Made by a program: the position numbers and the translations under genes. Under the pieces are notes generated by a model that worked only from the letters and a program-made list of their open reading frames with translations, was not told the origin of the DNA and made no database searches. Source: Polyangiaceae bacterium (lineage in GTDB: Bacteria; Myxococcota_A; Polyangia; Polyangiales; Polyangiaceae). Taken from it: a DNA stretch of 59,113 nt. Shown piece by piece: positions 7,709 to 22,971 of the stretch; positions within the stretch are counted from its first letter, which is position 1, and the number at the start of each line of letters is the position of its first letter. The stretch is from NCBI GenBank assembly GCA_025937835.1, contig JAICQO010000033.1:1-59113 (forward strand), read 5' to 3'.

Positions 7709-8087
7709 GAGTGGCATCGCCCGCTCTGAAAAGTCTTTGCGCGGCGTGGGGCGGGGGCGCAACAGGAAGACCGGTAAGACCGGAAGCCGGATTTTCTTGG
7801 AGGAGAGAGAGTCGGGGTCGTGCAACGCAAAATCCCAGCCCGCCTTCTGACTGTGATGTGTGATCGTCGAACCCGGCCGACCCGAGCGTTCTCAGGAACA
7901 CCCGCGTAGCCCCCACCGGGCTCTGCGCAGCCCATCAGCCAAGCCTAGCGCCCCACAAAACCAACTCTTGTTTCCGGACTTCCTGTCTTCTTGTCTTCCT
8001 GTTAGAAAAATAAACGCGACGCCGCGCCGCCCCACCGCGGCCGCGCAACGACGTCGGTAGACAAAGCAAGCCAGGCGCGGCTGCTGA
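7709..8087. repeat. Foldback repeat, copy 1 (arms A1 and B1 with 114-bp interior)
   Basis: Arm A1 (7709-7837) and arm B1 (7952-8087) recur almost unchanged as 8086-8211 and 8208-8342. Inside the arms, aacaggaagac (A) and gtcttcctgtt (B) are inverse complements, so the unit can fold back. Copy 1 differs by a unique interior at 7838-7951. No transposase gene is present. Confidence 0.75.
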
Positions 8088-8342
8088 GTGGCATCGCCGC
8101 TCTGAAAAGTCTTTGCGCGGCGTGGGGCGGGGGCGCAACAGGAAGACCGGTAAGACCGGAAGCCGGATTTTCTTGGAGGAGAGAGTCGGGTTCGTGCAAC
8201 GCAAAATCCCACAAAACCAACTCTTATTCGGGACTTCCTGTCTTCTTGTCTTCCTGTTAGAAAAATAAACGCGACGCCGCGCCGTCCCACCGCGGCCGCG
8301 CAACGACGTCGGCAGACAAAGCAAGCCAGGCGCGGCTGCTGA
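8086..8342. repeat. Foldback repeat, copy 2 (arms A2 and B2 directly abutting)
   Basis: This is a direct-orientation duplicate of copy 1, lacking the 114-bp interior. Differences are few (for example one C missing in gcatcgc[c]cgctc, and cttgtttcc changed to cttattcg). Together the copies fill most of the 741-bp gap 7676-8416, which shows no credible gene. Confidence 0.75.
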
Positions 8343-8416: not shown

Positions 8417-11185
8417 TTACTGGATGCCCATGCAGCGGTGGTTCACGCACTGCTTGTTGGCCGGGCAGGGGCCGCAGTCGAGCACCTCTCCGCAGTTGTC
8501 GGAGATCTCGCCGCACTGGGCGCGCTCGGCGTCGCAGGTCGTGGGCTGGCACTCGGGAGTGCCGCACTTGTACGGCTCGTCCAGGCCGCAGATCTGGCCG
8601 GGCGGGCACTCGCCGCAGTCGATGACGTCGCTGCAACCGTCGCCGACGAGGCCGCACTCGGCATTGGCGTCTTCGCAGCTGCGCGGCTCGCAGTCGGGGC
8701 CGTCCCCGCACTGGTTCGGCGATTGAGCGCCGCAGGTCTGACCGGGCGGGCAGGGACCGCAATCGAGCACGGAGCTGCAGCCGTCACCGATCGAGCCACA
8801 CTCGGCGTTCTGCGCGAGGCAGGTGGTGGGCTTGCACATGGGGGTGCAGGGGCCGCAGTCGAGCGTGCCACCGCAGCCGTTCGGGATGACGCCGCAAGCG
8901 TCGTCCGAGCACTCCGAGGGGGTGCAGCTCGGCGGCTCGGGGTCGTCGCCCACGCACGCGCCGAGGTCGAACAGCATGTAGAGGAGGATTTTCTCCTGGT
9001 CGGTCAGGTTGCCGTTGTTGGCGCTGCTGCCCGTGCAGTGGTTCGGGAACGTCGCGTTGGCGTAGGGCGAGAGGCCGCCGCCGTAGGACACGTGGAAGCC
9101 GCTGTAAGCGACGCGGCCGCAGGCGGCCATGTCCGGAGCGCCGTACGGCGTGTTGAACGAGAACTGCTGGGTGCGGTTCGGGGTCGTGGTGTGCACGAAC
9201 TCTTCCGTGCCGTCGTGGATCTGGTCACCGGCCCCGTTCGTTACCTGGCTGCGGGGCTCGTTCAGATTGAAGGAGAACGCCGGGGTGGTGGTCGCCGTCG
9301 TGACGCCCTCGGTCACCATCCAGTCGCGGAAGTTTTCGATCCGCGGGCTGACGTGGGGCCGGCCGATCGAGATGATGCCGGTTCCAGTGTTGGTCGTGGA
9401 GTCGAAGCTCGCGTTCCACGACGCCGCGCCGCGGAGACCGCTGGTGAAGTCGGCGCTGCCGGTGGGGTAGGCGGTGTTGTTGCCGGTGTTGTTGTCGCTG
9501 AGCCACGTGAAGGAGAGGTGGCTCGCGAACAGACGGCCGCCGCGGTTCACGAAGTTCCTGACGTTGCCCTGCTGCGCGTCGTTGGGGTTCGAGTCGTAGC
9601 TGCCACCCTCGCAGTCGGCGACGACCATGTCGTAAGCGCGCAGGCGGTCGATGCTGCCGTAAAGCGTGCCCTCGCTCGGCGTGTCGCCGTTGATGCGCGC
9701 GCCGGAGTCGCCCGAGTCTCCGCGGTAGAGGTGCACGCGCGGCGCGGCCGTCCCGTCTCCGGGGTTGCCGAACTCGCCCTGGGCGATGCCCATCTTGAAC
9801 AACACGCACTCGATGGCGTCGATTTCGCCCGTGCTGACGGCGATGCGCGGGATGTTGACGGCGAGGCCGTCGTCCATGGCGCGCGGCAGGCGCGTCGGGT
9901 TACCGGCCGCGACGGTTGCCGGCAGGTTCGTGGCCTTGCAACCGTCGGCTTCGGGGATCGTGAAGCGCGTGGCGCGGCGGAACTTGCCGACCTTGACGAC
10001 CAGCACGAACTCGGCGCCGACCGGGATGTTGCCGGTTATCGTGAACGTGCCGGTGGCGTCGGTGACGTCGCCCGCGAGCACGGGGCCGAGCTCCTGATCC
10101 TCGCAGCGCTCACACGCGGTGCCGGTGGCGCCGCCGCCGATGCCGGTCGTGATGTTGGGCAGCAGCGCGGGGTCGTTGCTGCGCAGGATGTACACGAAGG
10201 CGTTCGGCACGCCGACCTGGTTCTCCGTGTTCGCGTCGTTGCGTCCCGGAGTCACGACGCGGCCGCTGAGGCTCGTCGGGCTGTTGGTCGGGCAAGCGGG
10301 GACGTTCCCGCAGAGCTCGCAGTCCGGAACGGCGTTCTGGCACTCGGTGGCGCCGTTGACGCCGCCCTTGCAGAGCTCGAAGGGGCCGCAGCTGCGGCCG
10401 ACGTCGGCACAGTCGAAGACGTTGCCGCACTCGTCCACGAACATGCCGCACTCCCAGTCGCTGTCTTCGCAGCTCGTGACGTCGGAGTGGCACTCGGGCG
10501 GAGCCGCGCATTGATACGGCTGGTCGATGCCGCAGAAGGTGCCGTCTTCACACGGGCCGAGCTCGGCGGTGCAGTCCAGCGTGCCGCCGCAGCCGTCGCC
10601 GATCACGCCGCAGCGCTTGCCGGCGTCGGCACAGCTCGCGATGGGCACGCAGTCGCCGGGGCCGGAGCCGACGCCGCACTGGAAGGGCTCTTCGGCGCCG
10701 CACGTCTCGCCCGTGTCGCACTGGCCGCATTGGTAGGTGTTGCCGCAGCCGTCGCCTTCGGCGCCGCACGCTTTGCCCTCGCAGGCTTCCTCTTGGGTGA
10801 TCGGGGTACAGAGGTCGTCGAGCGGCGTGCAGACGTTGGTCTTGACGATGCCGCACTTCTCGTCGTCGCCGCACTCGCCGCACTCGATGATGTCGCCGCA
10901 GCCGTCAGCGACGGTGCCGCAATCCATGCCCAGGTCTTCACACGATTTCGGTTCGCACTGCGAAGTGCCGCCGACCGTGACGACCGAGCCGCCGGTGTTG
11001 CCGTTGCCGCGGCCGCCGCTGCCGGGGCTGGCGCCGGTGCCGTTGTTACCACCGCGAAGCGGCGTGTCGTCCGGCGACGTCCCGTTGTCGATAGCCTGAA
11101 ATTGCGGATCACTGCCGCAAGCGACGAAAGCCCCAAGCAAGCTCAGCGTCGCGAAGCGCGCGCCGACACGAATCCCAGAAAACAT
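8417..11185 (-). CDS. Cys-rich lipoprotein with central carboxypeptidase-regulatory-like region
   Basis: The 922-aa protein has a lipoprotein signal (LGAFVAC, Cys23) and a Gly/Asn linker. N-terminal Cys repeats follow the pattern C.P.SC.D....CG...DGCG....CG.C (about 75-290). A middle part begins SLSGRVVTPGRND, with a CarboxypepD_reg-like strand set (GTFTITGNIPVGAEF). Then comes an alpha/beta region (YDMVVADCEGGSYD, NFVNRGGRLFASHLSFTWL) reminiscent of ThuA/glutamine-amidotransferase-like folds. Four more Cys repeats end the protein (about 765-915). Similar proteins are sometimes labelled 'tryptophan synthase alpha chain', which nothing here supports. It is probably anchored in the outer membrane; the ligand is unknown. 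Confidence 0.78.
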   Translation of the reverse strand: MFSGIRVGARFATLSLLGAFVACGSDPQFQAIDNGTSPDDTPLRGGNNGTGASPGSGGRGNGNTGGSVVTVGGTSQCEPKSCEDLGMDCGTVADGCGDIIECGECGDDEKCGIVKTNVCTPLDDLCTPITQEEACEGKACGAEGDGCGNTYQCGQCDTGETCGAEEPFQCGVGSGPGDCVPIASCADAGKRCGVIGDGCGGTLDCTAELGPCEDGTFCGIDQPYQCAAPPECHSDVTSCEDSDWECGMFVDECGNVFDCADVGRSCGPFELCKGGVNGATECQNAVPDCELCGNVPACPTNSPTSLSGRVVTPGRNDANTENQVGVPNAFVYILRSNDPALLPNITTGIGGGATGTACERCEDQELGPVLAGDVTDATGTFTITGNIPVGAEFVLVVKVGKFRRATRFTIPEADGCKATNLPATVAAGNPTRLPRAMDDGLAVNIPRIAVSTGEIDAIECVLFKMGIAQGEFGNPGDGTAAPRVHLYRGDSGDSGARINGDTPSEGTLYGSIDRLRAYDMVVADCEGGSYDSNPNDAQQGNVRNFVNRGGRLFASHLSFTWLSDNNTGNNTAYPTGSADFTSGLRGAASWNASFDSTTNTGTGIISIGRPHVSPRIENFRDWMVTEGVTTATTTPAFSFNLNEPRSQVTNGAGDQIHDGTEEFVHTTTPNRTQQFSFNTPYGAPDMAACGRVAYSGFHVSYGGGLSPYANATFPNHCTGSSANNGNLTDQEKILLYMLFDLGACVGDDPEPPSCTPSECSDDACGVIPNGCGGTLDCGPCTPMCKPTTCLAQNAECGSIGDGCSSVLDCGPCPPGQTCGAQSPNQCGDGPDCEPRSCEDANAECGLVGDGCSDVIDCGECPPGQICGLDEPYKCGTPECQPTTCDAERAQCGEISDNCGEVLDCGPCPANKQCVNHRCMGIQ

Positions 11186-11573: not shown

Positions 11574-14500
11574 ATGGCTGGGTCGCCGCAGCAGCCCTCC
11601 TCCCCTTCCGTCTCTGGCCGTGAGGATGATCCCTCTCGGCTCACGGGCGCGCGCGCCGAGTTTGCCGCCAGTCTGCCCAGACGGCTCGAGGTGGTGCGGG
11701 CCGTCCTGCGGGCGCTCTCCGAAGCCCCGACGGAAGCGGACCGAAAGCAGGCGCTCACTCGCCGGCTCCACGCGCTGGGCTCGGCCGCCCGGGTGCTCGG
11801 GTTTGCGAGCGTGGCGGAGGCCATGACCGAGGCGGAGCAGCTGCTCGAACGGCCGGGCAACCCGGCGCAGCGCGCCGCCGCGCTGTCGGAGGTCGGCCGC
11901 GCCATCGACATGGTGCCCTCCCTGCTCCTCGGCACGCCCCCGTCCACGCGCATGAGCGAGCCTCCGCCGCCCGTGGGGCAGCAGGCCCAGCCAGTGAACG
12001 TGCTGGTGTTCGGGACCTCGAGCCTCTCGGCCGCGCTGGTCGGCGACGCGCCGATCGAGGTCGAACGCACCGAGGACCGGGAGCGGGCGATCGAGCTGGC
12101 TCGCGCTTCCGGACCCAACCTGGTGATCGTGGACGCGGACCGCGTCGGGGCTCGGGAGCTCGTCGAGAGCCTGTCCCGTGACCCGCTGGTCGAGCGCATG
12201 CCCGTGCTGGTGGTGGGCAATTTCGTCAGTCCGAGCGCGGCCGCGGCCTACGTCTCGCTCGGCGCGGCCCGCGTGCTGCCGAAACCGGTGAGCCCGGACG
12301 TGCTCTCGCGCACCGCCCTCGAGCTGTGCGGCGCAGCCTCGGCCGTTCGCGTGGAGCGCGAGCCGCTCGGCAACCGCACGGTGGAAGAGCTCGCGGAGCG
12401 GATCGCGAGCGAGGTGAAAAAGGGGCTGGTCGAGAGCCTCGAAGCCGGCGGCCGCACGACCCAGGTGGCGTTCGCCGACGGCGCGGACGTGATGGCCGCG
12501 GTCTGGGGTGCGATCGCGCGGGTGCGAGAGCTCGTGACGCTGCGCTCGTCGGGAAATGTGCGGTTCTTGCCGTACGGGCCCGAGGGCGCCGTGCCGGTGG
12601 CCCCGTGGTTGGTCGAGGATCGCCGCGCCGGTGAGCGCGGCGCGAGCTCCAAGCGCAGCCTGGACGAGGTCGGCTTGCGCGGCCGACGCCTGGTGGTCGC
12701 CGACGACGATCCGGCCGTGGTCTGGTTCCTCTCGGATCTGTTGCGCGCGGTCGGCGCCGAGGTGATCGAGGCCCACGACGGGCAGTCGGCCCTGGCCCGC
12801 ACCTTCGAGGTCTGGCCCGATCTGGTGATCAGCGACGTGCTGATGCCGGGGCGCGACGGGTTCTCGCTGTGTCACGAGATCCACCGCGACGTCGCCGTGC
12901 GCGACGTGCCGGTGATCTTGCTGTCGTGGAAGGAAGATCTGCTGCAGCGCGTGCGCGAGCTCGGCGCCGACGCCGACGGCTACCTGCGCAAGGAGACGGC
13001 GGCGTCCACCGTCGTCGAGCGCGTGCGCGAGGTGTTGGTGCCCCGCGCGCGGGTCGAGCAGCGGCTGAAAGCGGGAGGCGAGGTGCGCGGGCGCCTCGAC
13101 GGGCTCACGCCGCGGCTGTTGCTCGAGCTCGTCTGCCGGTGGATCCCCGACGCTTCGGTGACGTTCCGTGATGCCGTCTACCTGCACGAGGCGCACATCC
13201 GCGACGGGCGCTTGCGTCAGGTGTCGCGGAGCGCGTCCGACGGCAGCTTCGAGCGCGGTCCCAAGGTGCTGGCCGGGCTGCTCGGCGTGAACTCGGGGCG
13301 CTTCGTGGTGCAGCCGGACACGGCGCCGTGCCGCAAAGAGTTCGACGCGCCGCTCGACGAGCTGCTGCGGCCGCCGATCGCGCGGGCGCGCGTGGCGCTC
13401 GCGGCCCTGAGCACGGAGGCCTTGCCGCGCGTCGTGAAGGTAAAGGTCGACGCGGACGCGATCGGCCGTTATCTCGAGTGCACACCCGCCTCGGCGCGTA
13501 AGCTGATCGAGCGCCTGGTTCAGGGCGAGTCACCGCGTGATTTGTTGGTCAACGCGGATGCGTCGCTGGGGCTGCTCGAGTCCGTCCTATCGGACCTGGC
13601 CCGGCGCGGCGCGATCCAGGGCGTGGAGCACGACGACGGTCCAGTGCGGCTGTCGGCTCCGCCGCCCGAGCCAGCCCCGCTGCCGCCCCCGGCCGAGGGC
13701 GCGGGCGGCGCGTTCCGCACGGCGCCGCCTGCGGGCGTCGCGTCCGGTGCGCCCGCCGATCTCGGCAACGTGGACGCTTCGTGGTCCGAGCCGCCCGTGT
13801 CCTCGCCGATGGCGGAGCTCACGGCATCGGCCAAGGCCGTCTCCGACGCGGCGGTCAGCGCGGGGGCCCCAGCGTCTTCCGCTTCCCCCGCTGCGCCGGA
13901 GCACGGCACGCCGCCGCCGCTGCCGCCGCGCCCCGCGACCCCCACCGCGCCCGCCGTTTCCGGCGCGACTCGGCTCGGCATCGCGCCGCCGAAAGCGGAC
14001 GTGCCCGTGTTCCGGACTCCGTCGTCAACGAGCGAGGTCTCGGTGCGCCCGCCGCCGCGTCCGGTGGGCGAGCGCACTCCGCCGATGCCGCTCGGCAAGG
14101 CCGAGCCGGCGTCCGAGGCCGACGACTCGGGTTGGTTCAGCTTCCAGCTCGATCCGAGCGCGCAGCCGCCGCCGGCCGCGCCGAGTCTCGAGCCGAGCGC
14201 GATTTCGGACTCCTCCAAAGCCGCGGCGGGCGAGACTCCGTCGCCCAAGGCGGACGTGATGACGCCGGGCACTGCGGAGGCGCTTCTGGGCTCGCTCAGC
14301 GGCACGCCGCCGCGCGCCGAGGAGCCGACCAAGAACGAGCGGCCGCTGACGCGCACGTTGCAGTCGCCGCGTCACGACGACGACGGTGCGGACCCGCTCG
14401 ACGAGGAGCACATCGGTCCGATCTCGTCGCCGCGCGTCGTGCTGCGCGAGAATCAGGACGACCGCGTCTCGGATGCGTCGCTCGACGCGGGCCTGACCGA

Positions 14501-15074
14501 TGCCAAGCGCGAGCCCCCGCCGGACTCTCAACCGCGCGCACGCGAGGTCGCGCCGGACACCCAGCAATCCGGCACGTCACCGGCGCCCCCCGCGCGGCTA
14601 TCACCCGCTGGTTCCGGTGCGGCGCCGGCCGAACCCGAGTCCAGCGGCACGCGCACGCTGATCTTCTCGGTGCTGGCGTTCGCGGCGGCCTACGGCGCCG
14701 TGCGCTGGGGCCTCTCGCCGATGTTGGCTCCGCCCGCGGAAGATCCGGCGCCCGCGCTGTCCGTGCCGGCGCTCGGCAGCGCGCGGATCATCGATGCCCC
14801 GGCCTCGGCATTCACCCTCAAGAGCGAAGATCTCGAGATCGAGCCGGGCGTCGATGTCGGCGCCGGCAACGGGCTGGTCGAGATCGTCGGTGCCGACCGC
14901 GACGCGCTGTACGTGGACGGCACGCTCGTCGGCCGCGGGCCGCGCAGGCTGGTGCCGTCACCGCCGGGCCCGCACGAGGTGCGGATCAGCCGCGGCACGG
15001 ACGACGCGGTGCTCGAGGTCGAGGTCGCGGCGGGCCGCCGGGTGCGTGTCAGCGCTCCCGCATCGAGTCCGTGA
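11574..15074 (+). CDS. Membrane-anchored multi-domain receiver protein (HPt-like, REC, REC, DUF4388, PEGA)
   Basis: The 1166-aa protein has, in order: an HPt-like helical region (about 29-118, RRLHALGSAARVLGF with His66 in the phosphotransfer position); a divergent receiver (about 140-250); a canonical receiver (about 370-490, VVADDDP, phosphoacceptor Asp421 in ISDVLMPGRDGF, YLRKE); a DUF4388 domain (about 500-620, GRLDGLTPRLLLEL); a winged-helix-like segment ending about 690; about 330 residues rich in Pro/Ala/Ser; one membrane helix (about 1027-1045); and a C-terminal PEGA domain (YVDGTLVGRGPRRL). Receivers are thus cytoplasmic and PEGA probably periplasmic. The stop overlaps the next ATG (GTGATG), so it is coupled to the sulfatase-fold lipoprotein. 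No output DNA-binding or enzyme domain is recognised. Confidence 0.85.
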   Translation: MAGSPQQPSSPSVSGREDDPSRLTGARAEFAASLPRRLEVVRAVLRALSEAPTEADRKQALTRRLHALGSAARVLGFASVAEAMTEAEQLLERPGNPAQRAAALSEVGRAIDMVPSLLLGTPPSTRMSEPPPPVGQQAQPVNVLVFGTSSLSAALVGDAPIEVERTEDRERAIELARASGPNLVIVDADRVGARELVESLSRDPLVERMPVLVVGNFVSPSAAAAYVSLGAARVLPKPVSPDVLSRTALELCGAASAVRVEREPLGNRTVEELAERIASEVKKGLVESLEAGGRTTQVAFADGADVMAAVWGAIARVRELVTLRSSGNVRFLPYGPEGAVPVAPWLVEDRRAGERGASSKRSLDEVGLRGRRLVVADDDPAVVWFLSDLLRAVGAEVIEAHDGQSALARTFEVWPDLVISDVLMPGRDGFSLCHEIHRDVAVRDVPVILLSWKEDLLQRVRELGADADGYLRKETAASTVVERVREVLVPRARVEQRLKAGGEVRGRLDGLTPRLLLELVCRWIPDASVTFRDAVYLHEAHIRDGRLRQVSRSASDGSFERGPKVLAGLLGVNSGRFVVQPDTAPCRKEFDAPLDELLRPPIARARVALAALSTEALPRVVKVKVDADAIGRYLECTPASARKLIERLVQGESPRDLLVNADASLGLLESVLSDLARRGAIQGVEHDDGPVRLSAPPPEPAPLPPPAEGAGGAFRTAPPAGVASGAPADLGNVDASWSEPPVSSPMAELTASAKAVSDAAVSAGAPASSASPAAPEHGTPPPLPPRPATPTAPAVSGATRLGIAPPKADVPVFRTPSSTSEVSVRPPPRPVGERTPPMPLGKAEPASEADDSGWFSFQLDPSAQPPPAAPSLEPSAISDSSKAAAGETPSPKADVMTPGTAEALLGSLSGTPPRAEEPTKNERPLTRTLQSPRHDDDGADPLDEEHIGPISSPRVVLRENQDDRVSDASLDAGLTDAKREPPPDSQPRAREVAPDTQQSGTSPAPPARLSPAGSGAAPAEPESSGTRTLIFSVLAFAAAYGAVRWGLSPMLAPPAEDPAPALSVPALGSARIIDAPASAFTLKSEDLEIEPGVDVGAGNGLVEIVGADRDALYVDGTLVGRGPRRLVPSPPGPHEVRISRGTDDAVLEVEVAAGRRVRVSAPASSP

Positions 15075-17368
15075 TGCGGTTGCCGAGCAGCTTGCCGCTC
15101 AGGGCGGCGCTGGCGTTCGCGCTGTGCCTCTTGCTTTCGTGCCGCGACCGCACCCGGGAGCGGCCGGGCGCCGAGCGCCGCGAACCGTCGAACAAGCCGG
15201 CTCCCGCCCAGTCGAAGCCGCCGGAGCGCCACGATTTACTGGCGGATCTGGCGTCGTGCGAGATCGAGCACAAGGGCGAGCTGCTCGATCTGGGCACACC
15301 GGCGGCAGAAGCGCACCGCGCGTTCAGCGTCACGCCGCTGCCGGACGGCGCCTTCCTAGACCGCGGCGGAGCCACGTTCGAGAAGGTCACGAGCTCGCGG
15401 GTGTCGTTCGATCTGTGGCTCGACGAACCGCTCGAAAAGCCCAGCGTGAGCCTGCGCGTGCACGGCGGAGTGGCGCGCATCGTGCACGTGTACGTCGACG
15501 GGGACCGCTTCGGCGCGCTGCGGCTACCCGGGGACGACACGCGCATCTTGACCGCGAACGGTAAAGCCGAGTCGCTCGCGACCGGCCGGCACCGCGTGGA
15601 GCTGCGCTTCACCGGCGTGCCGCGCGGCACGAAGGCGACTTACGCCGAGCTCGACTGGCTCCGGCTCGGCGAGCGCGACGCCGATCCGAACAGCTACGCG
15701 GCGCCGACGTTCAAGGACGTGCTGTCGGACGTCGTGCTCGATCGCATCCCGCGCAAGAGCCTGGTGCTGCGCAAGGACAGCACCGTGCGCTGCTTCCTCC
15801 GGCCGTCGCGCGATGCGCGGCTCAAGCTGGGGATCGGGATGTGGGGCGCGGGCCGCGGCGTCGCCGAGATCCGCGCGCTCGCCGACGGTGAGGCGCCCAG
15901 CGTGCTCGCCACCAAGAAGGTGTCGGGGGGCGATACGGCGGTCTGGGTGCCGGTCAACCTCGAGCTCGGCGCGCAGGCGTCGCGCGTCGTGGGCCTCGAG
16001 TTCCGCGCGCTGGAAGTGACCCGCGGCGGGCGCATCGCGTTCGGCGATCCGGTGATCGCGCGCACGGACGATCGTGCGCTTTCGAGCCCGCGTGCGCGGC
16101 TGGCCGTGGTCGTGGTCCTGGCTTCGACCGATCGCCGCAGCTTGCCGCCGTGGGGTCCGACGCGGAAGCTCGCCACGCTCGGCGGCCTCTCGCGCGAGAG
16201 CCTGGCGTTCGCGTCGCATCGCGCGCCGACGACCGTTTCGGGCGGCTCGCTCGCCACGCTGCTCACGGGCGTCGGCCCGAGCGTGCACGGGCTGGAGGAG
16301 CCGACCTCCCGGCTCGAGAGCGAGCAGCGCACGCTCGGCGAGATCGTCAAGGAGGCCAACGGGCGCAGCGCGTTCTTCAGCGGCGTGCCGACCTCGTTCG
16401 CGCCGTTCGGCTTCAATCAGGGGTTCGACGTGTTCGACACGGTCTCGCCGGTCAAGGATCTGCCGGCGACCGAGCCGTTCGCGCGCGCCGAGCGCTGGCT
16501 CGAACAGGAGCTCGACGATCCGCACGAGGCGCCGCTCCTGCTGGTGCTGCACGCGCGCGGCGCACACCCGCCCTGGGATCTGAGCCGCGAAGAGACACAG
16601 TCGCTCAAGCCGGGCGACTACAGCGGCGGGCTCGATCCACGGCGCGGCGGCATCTTCCTCGGGCAGCTGCGCGCGCGGCAGCGCAAGGCCGGCAAGCGCC
16701 TGCTCGACGACGACTGGATGCGCCTGTCCCAGCTCACCGAGGCCGCGCTCCTGAAACAGGACGGCGCGCTGGGTAGGATCGTGTCGCTGCTCCGGCGCAA
16801 GCAGGTCTGGGACGACACGCTGTTCGTGGTCACGAGCGACGTGGGTCCCGGCAGCCAGCCGGACTTGCCGTTCGATCCGCGCGGCCCGCTCACCGAAGAT
16901 CGTTTGTTGATCCCGTTGTTGATGAAGCTGCCCGGGGGCAAGCTCGCCGGGCGCGAGGTGCAGGAGCCGTCGTCCACCGAAGACGTGACGATGACGATCT
17001 TGCAATCACTCGGGCTCGGTGCGCCGAAGCGCATCGAGGGCCTCGACCTCGCGGCGCGCGCCCAGGGACGCGAGCCGCTGGTGGCGCGCGCGCAGATCGC
17101 GACCTTGCCGGACCGCTACGTGGCGCGGATCGGCTCGCGGCTTTTGCGCGGCGAAACCGGCCAGGTGCCGAAGCTGTGCGCGCTCGACGTAGACCCGGGC
17201 TGCGCCGAGGACGCGTTCAACCGCGAGATCATCGCCGGCCGTGCCCTCTGGCAAGCCGTGTTTCACGACCAGAAGCTATCGCGCCGGGCCGCACCGGCAG
17301 AGCCGAAAGCGCCGATCGAGCTCGATGAAGAGACGGCGGCTGCGCTGATCGTGTGGGGCGATAGGTAG
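15074..17368 (+). CDS. Lipoprotein of the alkaline phosphatase/sulfatase superfamily
   Basis: The 764-aa protein begins at the ATG overlapping the previous stop; the open frame further upstream is a shadow. A lipobox (CLLLSC) is followed by a charged/Pro linker, a beta-rich region (about 80-330, LDEPLEKPSVSLRVHGG and HVYVDGDRFGAL, like a carbohydrate-binding fold), then a sulfatase-type domain (about 355-690: VVVVLASTDRRSLPPWG, SGGSLATLLTGVGPSVHGL, VLHARGAHPPWDLS, LFVVTSDVG). The segment aligning with the sulfatase C-x-P-S-R signature reads APTTVSGGSLATLLTG: no formylglycine Cys or Ser-type signature is obvious. It may be a phosphotransferase/phosphodiesterase, an atypical sulfatase or a non-catalytic binder. 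Attachment to the outer membrane is inferred. Confidence 0.8.
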   Translation: MRLPSSLPLRAALAFALCLLLSCRDRTRERPGAERREPSNKPAPAQSKPPERHDLLADLASCEIEHKGELLDLGTPAAEAHRAFSVTPLPDGAFLDRGGATFEKVTSSRVSFDLWLDEPLEKPSVSLRVHGGVARIVHVYVDGDRFGALRLPGDDTRILTANGKAESLATGRHRVELRFTGVPRGTKATYAELDWLRLGERDADPNSYAAPTFKDVLSDVVLDRIPRKSLVLRKDSTVRCFLRPSRDARLKLGIGMWGAGRGVAEIRALADGEAPSVLATKKVSGGDTAVWVPVNLELGAQASRVVGLEFRALEVTRGGRIAFGDPVIARTDDRALSSPRARLAVVVVLASTDRRSLPPWGPTRKLATLGGLSRESLAFASHRAPTTVSGGSLATLLTGVGPSVHGLEEPTSRLESEQRTLGEIVKEANGRSAFFSGVPTSFAPFGFNQGFDVFDTVSPVKDLPATEPFARAERWLEQELDDPHEAPLLLVLHARGAHPPWDLSREETQSLKPGDYSGGLDPRRGGIFLGQLRARQRKAGKRLLDDDWMRLSQLTEAALLKQDGALGRIVSLLRRKQVWDDTLFVVTSDVGPGSQPDLPFDPRGPLTEDRLLIPLLMKLPGGKLAGREVQEPSSTEDVTMTILQSLGLGAPKRIEGLDLAARAQGREPLVARAQIATLPDRYVARIGSRLLRGETGQVPKLCALDVDPGCAEDAFNREIIAGRALWQAVFHDQKLSRRAAPAEPKAPIELDEETAAALIVWGDR

Positions 17369-17554: not shown

Positions 17555-18355
17555 ATGTTCAATCAAGCTTTCAAACTCGCAGAGGCCGTGAGCTTCGCGG
17601 CGACGCTGCTGGTCACTTTCCCGGCGCTGGCTGAAGAGCTTCCGCCGGCGACGGCGGAGGCCGCGCCGTCCGCGCTCGAGCTCAGCGAGCAAGCCCGCTC
17701 GCGCTACGAGGACGGCGACTTCGCGAGCGCGCTCACGCTCTTCAATCAGGCCTACGCGCGTGACCCCGATCCGAACCTGCTCTTCAACATCGCCCGCTGC
17801 CACGAGAAGCTCGGCGACAGCGCGGCGGCGATCGAGCAATACGAGGCGTTTCTGGCGAGCCCGAACGCCGACCCCGACGGCTTGAAAAAGGCCCAGGCCT
17901 CGCGCGACGCGCTCGTGAAGAGCCGGCAGCGCCGCGCCGCACGTCCCGGGACCAGCTCCGAACGACCGACCTTCGGCGACGACGGCGAAAGCGTTGCCCC
18001 CGAGAGCGCTGGCTCGTCGCACCTCGCGTCCTGGCTGCTGCTCGGGGCTGGCGTCGCGACCGCGGCGTCCGGCGTGGTCGTCTATTCGCTGGGTGTGAGC
18101 GATCACGAGGATGTCGAAGCTCAAGCCGGCTACGGCGATCCGACGCGCGTCGCCCCGATGACGCAGCGGCAGGCCGAACAGCGCGTCGACTCCGGTAACA
18201 CCAAGAAGCTGGTGGGCGGCTTGTTGATGGGCGGGGGTGGCGCGTTGCTTGCGAGCTCCGCCGTGTTGTTTCTGCTCGACCCGGGGCAGGAGTCGAAGGT
18301 CGGCTTCGGCCTTTCTCCGCGCGGCGGTAGCATCGCGATCCGCGGGAGGTTCTGA
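17555..18355 (+). CDS. Secreted/membrane TPR protein
   Basis: This 266-aa protein has a signal peptide ending near PALAEE, then TPR-type repeats (about 42-115: ARSRYEDGDFASALTLFNQAY, PNLLFNIARCHEKLGDSAAAI). A charged linker follows, then two hydrophobic segments (about 155-178 and 222-244) and a short tail. The type is common in Polyangiales next to Ser/Thr kinases, and the protein is presumably a periplasmic scaffold anchored in the inner membrane. Only 3 bases separate it from the binding-protein gene, so the two are co-transcribed. Confidence 0.8.
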   Translation: MFNQAFKLAEAVSFAATLLVTFPALAEELPPATAEAAPSALELSEQARSRYEDGDFASALTLFNQAYARDPDPNLLFNIARCHEKLGDSAAAIEQYEAFLASPNADPDGLKKAQASRDALVKSRQRRAARPGTSSERPTFGDDGESVAPESAGSSHLASWLLLGAGVATAASGVVVYSLGVSDHEDVEAQAGYGDPTRVAPMTQRQAEQRVDSGNTKKLVGGLLMGGGGALLASSAVLFLLDPGQESKVGFGLSPRGGSIAIRGRF

Positions 18356-18358
18356 GCC

Positions 18359-19858
18359 ATGCTCGCGCGCTTCGTGTTCCCGTTGCTGTTCGCGGGCGTG
18401 GCGGTCGCTTGCGGCGAGCCGTCGCTCGACGACACGCGCTTCTCCTGTGAGTCGCAGGCGGACTGCGACTCGGGCTACGTGTGCGGCCGCGTCTCGGGTC
18501 AGCGTGCGTGCGTCCCGGCGCAACAGTCCCCGATCCGGATCGGCATGAGCGGGCCGCTCCAGGGGCCCAGCCAGGATCTCGGCGGCGAAATGCGGCGCGG
18601 CATCGAGGCGCGCTTCGCCGAGGTGAACCGCGCCGGCGGCCTGTTCGGGCGGCGCGTCGAGCTCGACTGCCGGAACGACGACTACGATCCCGAGATCGCC
18701 GCCGCCAACGTCGAGACGCTGCTCGACATCAAGCAGAAGGTCGCCGATCCCGATCAGGCCGACGTGCGCGGTGACAACGGCGTGCTGGCTCTGCTCGGCA
18801 ACATCGGTACACCGACGATGCTGCGCACCGCGCCGATCGCCGACAAGAACCAGGTCGTGTTCTTCGCGCCGTTCACGGGCGCGCAGCGCTACCTGCGCGA
18901 CGGGACCAACTCTCCCTACGTGTACAACTACCGCGCGGGTTACTTCGAGGAGACGGAGGCGATGGTCGATTACCTCGCCAACTATCGCGCGCCGCGCGTG
19001 CTCGACACGCCGGATTCCTACCGGCGGCTCTTGGCCTTCACGCAGAACGACTCCTACGGAGACTCCGGCTACGAGGGTTTCGTGCGCGCCTACAACCAGC
19101 TGATCGGGTCCGTCCCGCAGCCGGACTCCGCGCAGCCGAACCCGTCGATCCGCCGGGTGCGTTACGAACGCGAAAACCTGGCGAGCGTCGACCCCGCGGT
19201 CGAAGAGGCGAAAGTGTTCCTCGACAATCTGTCGAGGACGGAAGCGCCGGGCAAGATCCCGGTCGGGATTCTGATGGTCGACACCTACGACCCGGGTAAC
19301 CGCTTCATCCGCGCGGTGAAGGACTTTTTGCACGAGAACGCCGAGCGCGCCGCTCGCTTCGACGTGGTGTTCTTGCACGTGTCGTTCGTCGGCAGTGATT
19401 CGCTGTCGCAAGCCTTGATGCGGCCGCCGGCCACGCGCGCGGACGCGACCGACCCCACCGGGCAGAAGCAGCTGAGCTACGCCGCGGGCGTGATCGTCAC
19501 GCAGGTCGTCCCCTATTACAAGGCGGAGAGCCCGGGCGTGGTCGATTACCGCAACGCCATCAAGCAGTACGACAACGCGGGCTCGAGCTTCACCTCGCTC
19601 GAAGGCTACGTCGCCGCGCGGCTGTTCCTCGACGCGCTCGCGCAAGCCGGGCCGGCGCTCGACCCCGAAGATTTGCGGAGCTCGCTCGATACGCAAATGC
19701 AGAATCGCGACCTCGGGCTCGGCACGCTGTTGAGCTTCTCCGCGACCAACCACCAGGCGTCGCACACCGTCTGGGGGAGCATGTTGACCGAGGACGGCAG
19801 CTTCACGATGCCCTTCGTCTGGACACCGGAGACGCGGATTGTCCCAGGCATCAACTGA
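18359..19858 (+). CDS. Type I periplasmic-binding lipoprotein (ABC amino-acid-type substrate-binding protein)
   Basis: The 499-aa product has a lipobox (FAGVAVAC, Cys18), a small Cys-rich segment (SCESQADCDSGYVCGRVSGQRACVP), then a Leu/Ile/Val-type binding fold. IRIGMSGPLQGPSQDLGGEMRRG opens lobe 1; GGLFGRRVELDCRNDDYDPE and GVLALLGNIGTPTMLRTAPI follow, as in LivJ-like proteins. Such proteins bind amino acids, urea or amides. No permease or ATPase gene is nearby, so it is probably not a transporter part; a sensory role with the kinase encoded next is inferred. The Cys-rich insert after the lipobox is unusual. Confidence 0.85.
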   Translation: MLARFVFPLLFAGVAVACGEPSLDDTRFSCESQADCDSGYVCGRVSGQRACVPAQQSPIRIGMSGPLQGPSQDLGGEMRRGIEARFAEVNRAGGLFGRRVELDCRNDDYDPEIAAANVETLLDIKQKVADPDQADVRGDNGVLALLGNIGTPTMLRTAPIADKNQVVFFAPFTGAQRYLRDGTNSPYVYNYRAGYFEETEAMVDYLANYRAPRVLDTPDSYRRLLAFTQNDSYGDSGYEGFVRAYNQLIGSVPQPDSAQPNPSIRRVRYERENLASVDPAVEEAKVFLDNLSRTEAPGKIPVGILMVDTYDPGNRFIRAVKDFLHENAERAARFDVVFLHVSFVGSDSLSQALMRPPATRADATDPTGQKQLSYAAGVIVTQVVPYYKAESPGVVDYRNAIKQYDNAGSSFTSLEGYVAARLFLDALAQAGPALDPEDLRSSLDTQMQNRDLGLGTLLSFSATNHQASHTVWGSMLTEDGSFTMPFVWTPETRIVPGIN

Positions 19859-19886
19859 GCCGAACCCAAGCCGACACGAGGACCAG

Positions 19887-21461
19887 ATGCTCGCCGAATC
19901 CACCGCGCAAACGCTCGAGTCGAGCTCCGAGCCGTCGTCCCGCAAATACCTTCGGATCGCGCGCCTCGATCGGGGCGGCATGGCGGACGTGTACCTGGCG
20001 CTGGCACGCGGCCCGCTCGAGTTCAGGAAGCTCCTGGTAGTGAAGTGCCTGCGCGTCGTGGCCGGGCACGAGGAGCTGTGCCGCTCGATGTTCATCGACG
20101 AGGCGCGCCTGTCGGCGCGTCTGAACCACCCGAACGTCGTCCAGACCTACGAGATCAGCGAGGACGAGGGCAAGCCGCTGATCGTGATGGAGTATCTGGA
20201 GGGGCAGAGCCTCGCGCGCCTGCGCAAGGCGGCCAAGGCCATCGACGCCCGGCGCGCCGCGCGCATCGTCTGCGACGCGCTCTCGGGCTTGCACTACGCG
20301 CACGAGCTCCGCGACTTCGACGGCACAGCGCTCAACGTGGTGCATCGCGACCTGAGCCCGCAGAACATCTTCGTCACCTACGAGGGCGCGGTGAAGATCC
20401 TCGATTTCGGGGTGGCCCGCGCCGAAATTCCGTCTCGCAGCCGCACCAAGGTCGGCGTGCTCAAGGGCAAATTCTCGTACATGGCGCCCGAGCAAACCTC
20501 GGGCGAGCCGATCGATCGCCGCACCGATCTATTCACGGTCGGGATCGTGCTCTGGGAGCTGGTCGCGGGGCAGCGCATGTTCGGCGGCACCGCCGTTCAA
20601 AAGCTCAAGGCGCTGATCCACGATCCGATCCCGAAGCTGTCGAGCGTCCGGCCCGAGGTCGATCCCGAGCTCGAACGGATCGTGCACCGCGCGCTCGAGA
20701 AGGATCGCGAGCTTCGCTATCCGAGCGCCGCCGAGATGCGTGAAGACCTCGAGAACTACCTGGCGAGGACGGGCCCGGCGATCCGCAGCGAGGACATCTC
20801 GCGCCTGATGCTGACGCACTTCGCGGTCGATCGTCAGGAGCTCCGGCAAGAGGTCCAGGAGCTCCTGGCGGCGGAGTCGTCGATGCCGGGCTCCGTGCCC
20901 GAGCTCAAGTCGGCGCCGATCCGCGACGGCTCTCCGTCGATGGCTCCGAGTAGCCTGTCGCCGATCACGCGCCCGGAGGCAGCCACGCCTGCAGCGCCCA
21001 GCGTGGAACCGCCGATCCCGTGGGGCCGCGAACGCCGGAGAGCGCTGCTCGTCGCGGTCGTTCTCGGAGTCCTTGCGTTTGCCCCGGTGGTGGCGCTGCT
21101 GCTCTGGGGTGAGGGGGGACTGCTCGAGCGGCCTGCGCCGCCGAGCGCAGCCGTGCCGGCGTCGCCTCGCGCTGCCGCGCCGCTCCCCACCGCGCAACCA
21201 ACCCCTGTCGAGGCGTCGAGCGCGCCGCCAGAGGTCGAGCTCACCGAGCTCCGCCAAGAGCGGCCGCCAGCACCGCGTGTGCGCCGCGCACCCACTCCTC
21301 CGCCGCTTCCACCAGGGCGCGCGCCGATCCGCGCCGTGCAGCCGGCTGCGGACAATTCCCCGGAGCCCGCGCCGCAGCCCGTGGCGCCCCCGACGGCTTC
21401 GACCGCGGCCCCGCGCGTGCGGCTCGTGGACGATAAGCCTCGAGTACCAATCGTCGACTGA
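19887..21461 (+). CDS. Membrane-anchored Ser/Thr protein kinase
   Basis: The ATG at 19887 is preceded by GAGGA at good spacing; the upstream TTG inside the previous gene is less likely. The 524-aa protein has a full Hanks-type kinase domain: Gly loop LDRGGMADVYLA (28-39), catalytic Lys53, VVHRDLSPQN with Asp155, DFG at 173-175 and MAPEQ (199-203). A juxtamembrane region, one membrane helix (about 386-407) and a Pro/Ala-rich outer tail without PASTA repeats follow. It should phosphorylate cytoplasmic proteins. The neighbouring binding lipoprotein and TPR protein could supply the input, which is inference. Confidence 0.9.
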   Translation: MLAESTAQTLESSSEPSSRKYLRIARLDRGGMADVYLALARGPLEFRKLLVVKCLRVVAGHEELCRSMFIDEARLSARLNHPNVVQTYEISEDEGKPLIVMEYLEGQSLARLRKAAKAIDARRAARIVCDALSGLHYAHELRDFDGTALNVVHRDLSPQNIFVTYEGAVKILDFGVARAEIPSRSRTKVGVLKGKFSYMAPEQTSGEPIDRRTDLFTVGIVLWELVAGQRMFGGTAVQKLKALIHDPIPKLSSVRPEVDPELERIVHRALEKDRELRYPSAAEMREDLENYLARTGPAIRSEDISRLMLTHFAVDRQELRQEVQELLAAESSMPGSVPELKSAPIRDGSPSMAPSSLSPITRPEAATPAAPSVEPPIPWGRERRRALLVAVVLGVLAFAPVVALLLWGEGGLLERPAPPSAAVPASPRAAAPLPTAQPTPVEASSAPPEVELTELRQERPPAPRVRRAPTPPPLPPGRAPIRAVQPAADNSPEPAPQPVAPPTASTAAPRVRLVDDKPRVPIVD

Positions 21462-22908: not shown

Positions 22909-22971
22909 GAATTTTTAACAGGAAGATTAGAAGACGGGAAGTCCTGCACAAGCTTTTGGGGGGGCGCACTG
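22909..22971. repeat. Degenerate copy of the foldback-repeat core
   Basis: atttttaacaggaagatta then gaagacgggaagtcctg closely matches the inverse complement of arm B (8208-8342), continuing into a G-run as that arm does. It lies between two convergent genes. Only one arm is recognisable. Confidence 0.55.

Follow-up and report, generated by a model that had tools for sequence, protein, structure and literature searches.

A conserved gene pair of the Polyangiaceae joins a receiver protein to a sulfatase-fold lipoprotein with a broken catalytic set

We analyzed a stretch of 59,113 nucleotides from a Polyangiaceae bacterium (contig JAICQO010000033.1 of assembly GCA_025937835.1), termed the window throughout, which is one contig of a 6.9-Mb genome assembled in 227 contigs; the named relatives of this genome belong to the Polyangiaceae and other Myxococcales. 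Its forward strand carries two overlapping genes, here called A and B, encoding a multidomain receiver protein and a lipoprotein of the sulfatase fold. The A–B pair is old and conserved, and in the clade of the window the lipoprotein is, judged from its sequence, probably a pseudoenzyme kept for binding. We tentatively favor a reading, itself open to real doubt, in which A and B form one two-gene envelope signaling module, where B would have lost catalysis and taken on a binding or sensing role and the signal would most likely run from outside to inside.

11574–15074, forward strand: gene A, encoding an HPt-REC-REC-DUF4388-TM-PEGA protein of 1166 residues (REC, receiver; TM, membrane helix; open reading frame calls, Pfam, AlphaFold model)
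15074–17368, forward strand: gene B, encoding a sulfatase-fold lipoprotein of 764 residues (a GTG start at 15071 is possible; open reading frame, Pfam, model)

Linkage and distribution of the pair

The two reading frames meet in the hexanucleotide GTGATG (15071–15076), where the TGA stop codon of gene A occupies 15072–15074 and gene B can start either at the ATG at 15074, with a 1-nt overlap, or at the GTG at 15071, with a 4-nt overlap. This junction agrees with an earlier note on the same DNA, which had described a 1166-residue protein whose stop overlaps the start of a lipoprotein gene (open reading frames 11574–15074 and onward to 17368). An overlap of 4 nt was also the commonest A–B spacing, found at 8 of 45 named adjacent loci with start codons chosen by script. 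Promoter, terminator and Rfam scans yielded nothing useful.

The linkage search covered 97 relatives, using profiles of A (E up to 1e-8) and B (E up to 1e-20), and the 60 genomes of the window's family, which includes named members of Polyangium, Minicystis and Labilithrix, were tabulated. A was detected in 54 of these, B in 59 and both in 53. The two genes shared a contig in 45 genomes, standing in tandem with A before B in 43, and lay on separate contigs in eight others, some of which were plausibly split by contig ends. Tandem pairs were also present in the families labeled f2, f5, f8, f9, f11 and f6 and in one f3 genome; among the other f3 genomes, L067 has the two genes about 4 kb apart and divergent, and L065 has no A nearby. 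Polyangium isolates and Minicystis rosea DSM 24000, the latter with a complete chromosome, have the same tandem arrangement (L084, L079, L082, L117). The earlier note had held that unlinked genes in relatives would speak against its reading; the genes proved to be linked in the family and in other families of the order. When 140 genomes sampled across the phylum were searched with a profile of A residues 496–690 (E up to 1e-12), 20 gave a match, all within the window's order, comprising 14 from the window's family and 6 from other families.

For a view of the surroundings, loci L072–L151 were seeded on the pattern [HQ][ATL][RI][GD][GPA]H[PV]P[WY]D, retaining the best 80 of 127. Among the 14 largest clusters of open reading frames around these loci, those of B (80 loci) and A (50 loci) were the only large ones not mostly antisense to the pair. 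A third conserved gene was accordingly rejected, as the remaining clusters of more than 13 loci lie mostly antisense to A or B by strand and position; clusters of 10–13 of the 80 loci may include real neighbors. B proteins were classed by sequence as active-type, with the catalytic residues present, or inactive-type, with the set broken. A stands directly upstream of inactive-type B at 38 of 42 informative named loci, with five more being uninformative.

Catalytic residues of gene B

15074–15142, forward strand: lipoprotein signal with lipobox Cys23 (LLSC; sequence)
15212–16078, forward strand: N-terminal β-rich region, residues 47–335 (model; no Pfam family found)
16091–17326, forward strand: sulfatase-fold domain, residues 340–751 (Pfam, fold match)
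16238–16240, forward strand: Ser389, at the Thr-nucleophile position of active-type relatives (alignment)
16550–16579, forward strand: HARGAHPPWD, residues 493–502 (alignment of active- and inactive-type B)
16838–16843, forward strand: Asp589–Val590, with the Asp kept and the metal-site His gone (alignment)

Unless stated otherwise, residue counts for B refer to 40 loci (7 active-type, 33 inactive-type) obtained by a whole-protein search and not chosen by motif, leaving out partial or weak matches such as G005, G008, G015, G019 and G024. The lipobox Cys is present in 32/33 inactive-type and 6/7 active-type proteins, and 63 of the 80 named loci passed a stricter lipobox pattern; judged from this signal, B is presumably periplasmic. 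Three active-type proteins, from L130 and L138 (A not upstream) and from L151 (upstream region uninformative), start with a twin-arginine-like S/T-R-R-[ED]-F stretch rather than with a plain lipoprotein signal. The window protein matches the Sulfatase family PF00884 with an E value of 6.2e-19 (68.8 bits against a cut-off of 25), and its fold was predicted with a predicted local distance difference test score (pLDDT) of 90. The best structural match was an S1 sulfatase (VIA; Z 32.2, root mean square deviation 3.4, 379 residues aligned), in line with the assignment to the alkaline phosphatase superfamily in the earlier note.

The B proteins of the outgroup families display a complete catalytic set, reading D...R, N-W-T-K-P-S, DPH, SDHGE and GHGHS, with Thr at the nucleophile place. 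We take the catalytic roles of these residues to be those of the superfamily; the motif pattern itself was read in the alignments. The set has fallen apart in f8 and in the family of the window, where no more than two of its residues, the HPPW His and the S/G-D Asp, are retained throughout. The window protein has Ala350, Ser389, Val590, Pro602 and Gly604 where active-type proteins have Asp, Thr, His, His and His, respectively, retaining Asp589 and His498, and so lacks the metal-ligand and nucleophile residues of PF00884. The His at 590 is present in 7/7 active-type and 0/33 inactive-type proteins, with the same counts obtained for positions 602 and 604, and the first Asp, corresponding to Ala350, is found in 7/7 against 3/33. 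The nucleophile place is Thr in all seven active-type proteins and varies among the 33 inactive-type ones (Ala 11, Pro 8, Val 5, Ser 4, Thr 2, Asn 1, Gly 1, gap 1), Ser389 of the window thus not being conserved within its own clade. Assignment of B as a formylglycine sulfatase was rejected: the signature, which we take to be C/S-x-P-x-R, is missing, the aligned window residues being S-G-G-S-L. The earlier note had likewise seen no usual sulfatase signature, an absence that follows from the loss of the metal and nucleophile set in the window's clade.

In a tree of 81 B sequences computed without the catalytic columns, one branch (SH-aLRT, the Shimodaira–Hasegawa-like approximate likelihood ratio test, 100) divides 48 inactive-type proteins including that of the window from 33 active-type ones; this and the related trees were computed in quick mode, contain long rows (L112, L089, L154) and drew warnings on composition. 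The pattern suggests that the catalytic set was probably lost once, in the window's family and its sister family, as one change suffices. One change was still sufficient after addition of f6, whose B proteins (L152, L153) are inactive-type, more decayed and placed on a long branch joining near the split, so that they may represent a second, independent loss. At these two f6 loci B lies beside A and yet has lost the His of HPPW, making it the most decayed B seen with its partner kept; their A proteins retain the membrane helix and 142–161 residues after it.

Despite the broken set, inactive-type B is under purifying selection as measured on its sequences, the ratio of nonsynonymous to synonymous substitutions (dN/dS, NG86 method) ranging from 0.10 to 0.24 in 8 pairs. 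Active-type B gave 0.08–0.13 in 4/5 pairs and 0.37 in one. The clade has also acquired residues of its own. Where active-type relatives read QTIDPHVPYD, inactive-type proteins read HARGxHPPWD, in which H493, R495, G496, P499 and W501 are new in the inactive clade and H498, P500 and mostly D502 are common to the active-type proteins. Among the 33 inactive-type proteins G496 and P499 are invariant, as are H498, P500 and D589, and H493, R495 and W501 occur in 31 each; His493 is also found in 1/7 active-type rows. Conservation of the motif in L072–L151 arises partly by construction, these loci having been seeded on it, which does not hold for the 40-locus recount. New Cys residues accompany the motif, Cys62 and Cys240 in 32/33 and Cys702 and Cys710 in 29/33. 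By its pattern of conservation, the HARGxHPPWD stretch looks like a re-used pocket rather than decay.

Domain architecture of gene A

11655–11906, forward strand: HPt domain, residues 28–111, with His66 at the phosphotransfer position (Pfam Hpt, E 5.8e-7; four-helix model)
11994–12341, forward strand: receiver 1, degenerate, residues 141–256, with D187 and K237 present and G147–T148 replacing the acidic pair (fold in the model)
12357–12608, forward strand: conserved middle region, residues 262–345, without a Pfam match (hidden Markov model built from homologues)
12693–13025, forward strand: receiver 2, intact, residues 374–484, with D377, D378, D421 (12834–12836), S451 and K473 (Pfam, model)
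13059–13373, forward strand: DUF4388 (PATAN-type) region, residues 496–600 (weak Pfam matches in homologues only; model)
13407–13646, forward strand: winged-helix-like tail, residues 612–691 (order of secondary-structure elements only; conserved in relatives)
13662–14654, forward strand: disordered linker, residues 697–1027 (pLDDT under 50)
14655–14711, forward strand: membrane helix, residues 1028–1046 (AlphaFold, hydropathy, relatives)
14820–15053, forward strand: PEGA-like all-β domain, residues 1083–1160 (model pLDDT about 95; Pfam below cut-off)

The AlphaFold model of the gene A protein was built on 24 rows. Its HPt domain (PF01627) passes the Pfam cut-off with 30.1 against 24.6 bits and carries His66, a residue retained in 37/49 A proteins and absent in 12/49. 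Pfam Response_reg matched two stretches of A with an E value of 1.6e-26, the best being residues 374–484. This second receiver contains the whole residue set of PF00072 (D377, D378, D421, S451, K473) and superimposes on the PhoB receiver with Z 20.8 and a root mean square deviation of 1.3 over 122 aligned residues; across A proteins D421 is present in 51/57 and K473 in 52/57. The first receiver exhibits a receiver-like fold with D187 (43/50) and K237 (37/50) largely kept. It lacks the acidic pair of PF00072, with Asp at 147 in 3/50 and Asp or Glu at 148 in 10/50 proteins, and is probably a pseudo-receiver rather than a full receiver. Of the domains assigned by the earlier note, the HPt domain and an intact second receiver therefore stand, and the first receiver stands as a fold with a degenerate site. 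The window and two identical pairs (L078/L157, L128/L156) are counted in all these figures; for the window and named loci only they become 33/42 for the HPt His, 39/43 for D187 and 44/49 for D421. At L088, L090 and L095, A lies next to an inactive-type B with receiver 2 damaged (at D421 in L088 and L090, at the acidic pair in L095), and in L088 and L090 the HPt His is altered as well, rendering these pairs doubly disarmed.

Following the receivers, the model places a region of sheet and helices at residues 504–611, which would correspond to DUF4388 (PF14332), a domain we take to be the same as PATAN. Pfam gave no DUF4388 match in the window protein; weak matches were obtained in 5 of the 15 A proteins that were aligned (threshold E 0.1, lowest value 1.8e-4) and, with the threshold at E 1, in 10 of 16 homologous regions searched in isolation (lowest value 6.6e-5). 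This region is a candidate output of A, so that the claim in the earlier note of no output was too strong, having overlooked the DUF4388 domain it had itself named. Residues 620–691 were modeled with a winged-helix-like order of elements. A DNA-binding output through the tail 612–691 was not favored, as its 80 residues hold 13 Asp/Glu against 10 Lys/Arg. Fold searches with the whole model returned receivers or receiver-bearing proteins in all of the 50 best matches listed per search.

The linker is rich in Pro and Ala (64 and 54 among 326 residues counted) and leads to the predicted membrane helix. AlphaFold modeled this helix with low confidence (blocks at pLDDT 39–63), and the top hydropathy window of A, at residue 1029 with a mean of 1.61, barely exceeds the core of receiver 1 with 1.55. 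For this reason the case for the helix leans on relatives, where a hydropathy of at least 1.5 after the DUF4388 region was found in 34/35 adjacent A proteins with inactive-type B and 8/10 with active-type B. A helix at residues 1028–1046 is thus supported by the model and the relatives, consistent with the membrane helix at about residue 1027 on which the earlier note had made its reading depend. The C-terminal domain matched PEGA (PF08308) at residues 1112–1160 with 16.7 bits, under the cut-off of 20.8, and PEGA matches were obtained in 4/15 A proteins at E up to 0.1.

Readings of the pair and its surroundings

Since A and B were retained together after the reaction had been lost, the essential job of B is unlikely to be that reaction, and binding is the likelier core function; its retention after lost catalysis favors B as an envelope sensor or scaffold and A as a cytoplasmic hub. 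In the module that we tentatively favor, B would be a lipid-anchored protein whose ancestor was an enzyme with a Thr nucleophile and the alkaline phosphatase/sulfatase fold; it would have become catalytically inactive in this clade and would now bind a ligand as sensor or scaffold through the new, near-invariant residues in the old active-site cleft. A would be a membrane-tethered hub gated by a kinase encoded elsewhere, which would phosphorylate receiver 2, with HPt and receiver 1 as accessory parts. The helix, usually together with the PEGA domain, would place A beside B, and the DUF4388/PATAN-type region would contact a cytoplasmic target. The state of the envelope sensed by B would then alter A from outside to inside, gated by receiver phosphorylation. 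Such coupling across the envelope is plausible. A narrower version, in which a phospho-ester enzyme was disarmed once in the family ancestor and re-tooled, through the HARGxHPPWD stretch in its cleft and the new Cys residues, into a lipoprotein ligand sensor, signaling to a receiver with PATAN-type output without a sensor kinase there, we consider rather doubtful as a whole.

Several observations weigh against the favored module. A lies directly upstream of active-type B at only 11 of 31 informative loci (two more being uninformative), in a set with several copies per genome, so that not each is a counterpart of the window's B. Two of the 45 same-contig genomes do not show the tandem, namely G010, with the genes about 33 kb apart on opposite strands, and G185, with B and the A profile region 3.6 kb apart on opposite strands; B occurs without a detected A in 6/60 family genomes and A without B in one. 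D421 of receiver 2 is not Asp in L088, L090, L132, L149 and L161, the last being an A not beside a B within the fetched DNA, and the acidic pair is altered in L095; together with the 12/49 proteins lacking the HPt His, this indicates that phosphorylation is not required everywhere. No PEGA match was obtained in 6/35 A proteins beside inactive-type B (L085, L103, L105, L110, L111, L112), of which L085 and L103 are near-copies and L111 is also without a clear helix. The A proteins of L085/L103, L105, L110 and L159 terminate 9–20 residues past the helix and that of L116 only 39 residues past it, speaking against a simple contact of PEGA with B; as PEGA is missing from several helix-bearing A proteins beside B, it cannot be the universal contact. 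The motif in B is not absolute either, with Ala at 494 in 24/33 and Asp at 502 in 28/33 proteins, HLRGGHAPFD in L154 (G019; same family, weak match), and no HARGxHPPWD motif in f6.

The two genes might share an operon for expression only, with A using its PATAN-type region to act on type IV pili or some other target and B working as a separate lipoprotein that A does not touch. Excerpts of PMC10519157 and PMC7690835 report binding of the Synechocystis PATAN receivers to the pilus motor PilB, which together with the loss of PEGA in some A proteins lends this reading some weight; we nevertheless judge it unlikely, as 43/45 tandems, no third gene as widely retained, and a membrane-spanning A beside a lipoprotein B favor a joint task. 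Phosphorylation of A could instead alter its periplasmic end and so switch B, an enzyme in outgroups and an adhesive or structural partner here. Such control from inside to outside would fit the outgroup A genes adjoining a B with complete catalytic set (for example L066, L068, L070 and L071), where A may have begun as an enzyme controller, as well as the retention of D421 in most second receivers. However, an output of this kind would have vanished together with catalysis and yet the pair persisted, and DUF4388, lying on the receiver side of the helix, may itself be an output; we give this direction a small chance.

B might alternatively not be dead, having built a new catalytic or metal site from H493, H498, D502 and D589. 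In the cleft, H493 (31/33), H498 and D589 (33/33 each) are invariant or almost invariant, D502 is found in 28/33, and the window protein offers a Ser at the nucleophile place; however, this place is variable, the metal His is gone in 33/33, and profile searches named no family with such a residue set, rendering a new site quite improbable. An artefact of assembly or annotation, through wrong frames or chance overlap of open reading frames in high-GC DNA, could be imagined for a genome in 227 contigs with many long overlapping frames. It is refuted to a practically negligible chance by the tandem genes in the complete Minicystis rosea chromosome and the Polyangium isolates, and chance reading frames were rejected on conservation across the family genomes and low dN/dS.

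The closest parallel to the proposed module is YejM/PbgA/LapC, in which, according to excerpts of PMC13333357, a periplasmic domain of related fold serves as a regulatory envelope module informing a cytoplasmic regulator, the kind of role we propose for B. The same excerpts describe this domain as resembling EptA and LtaS, helping to control lipopolysaccharide synthesis, binding magnesium and having reported phosphatase activity. The window protein, by contrast, has lost the metal set, and whereas YejM has its own membrane domain and the partner LapB (PMC9356133, in excerpt), B is a lipoprotein with helix and receivers supplied by a second gene. The YejM profile matches the window B weakly (E 0.0064) and the active-type relative L119 with E 9.6e-11; assignment of B as YejM/LapC itself (NF038282) was rejected at 14.8 bits against an NCBIfam cut-off of 825. 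Phosphonate monoester hydrolases and S1 sulfatases share the fold of B, with Z 28.6–32.2 among the 50 best matches listed, and an active-type relative matches 4upk by sequence (E 2.2e-21). Active-type B differs from them by Thr in place of the Cys/Ser of what we take to be their C/S-x-P-x-R motif, and the window B further by loss of the metal His and most of the catalytic set.

A resembles the PATAN receivers PixG, PixE, LsiR and PatA in joining a receiver and a DUF4388-type region on one chain, and differs from them by adding HPt, a second receiver-like domain, a membrane helix and a PEGA-like domain. In Myxococcus xanthus, the PATAN proteins MXAN_3211 and MXAN_4965 belong to the candidates that a study of type IV pili did not take further, as stated in excerpts of PMC11580455. 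With PEGA-domain proteins A shares a C-terminal β domain, here with a sub-threshold PEGA score; unlike in these, the domain is borne by a two-component receiver protein and is missing in some members. Within the open-licence literature we found no paper on the A–B pair, and none joining a PEGA domain with DUF4388 or with a receiver domain; DUF4388 by name led to a single paper, which deals with nitrite reductase. Myxobacteria have been studied mainly through Myxococcus. If the favored module holds, the same pair with complete and with lost enzyme site would constitute a natural experiment on what a pseudoenzyme keeps doing, and would exemplify how the envelope can be read through receivers, with no need for a membrane sensor kinase.

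The genes flanking the pair in the window, generic kinase matches aside, were not found beside it in the 40 loci searched. They include three tightly packed genes downstream (17555–21461), encoding by Pfam a TPR protein, a periplasmic substrate-binding protein and a Ser/Thr kinase. Upstream on the reverse strand (8417–11185) lies a 922-residue open reading frame with a lipoprotein-like start and Cys-rich repeats (CG...DGCG...DCGxC by eye), for which no Pfam or NCBIfam match was obtained at the thresholds used. Further upstream, positions 7721–8342 contain direct repeats of 116 nt (97%) and 89 nt (100%), spaced about 255–376 nt apart. With 40 of 127 candidates scored, at least 17 genomic matches to the 116-nt unit were obtained, the other 15 spanning just 25–50 nt; some of these short matches form small arrays, and one lies within the window at 22912–22944.

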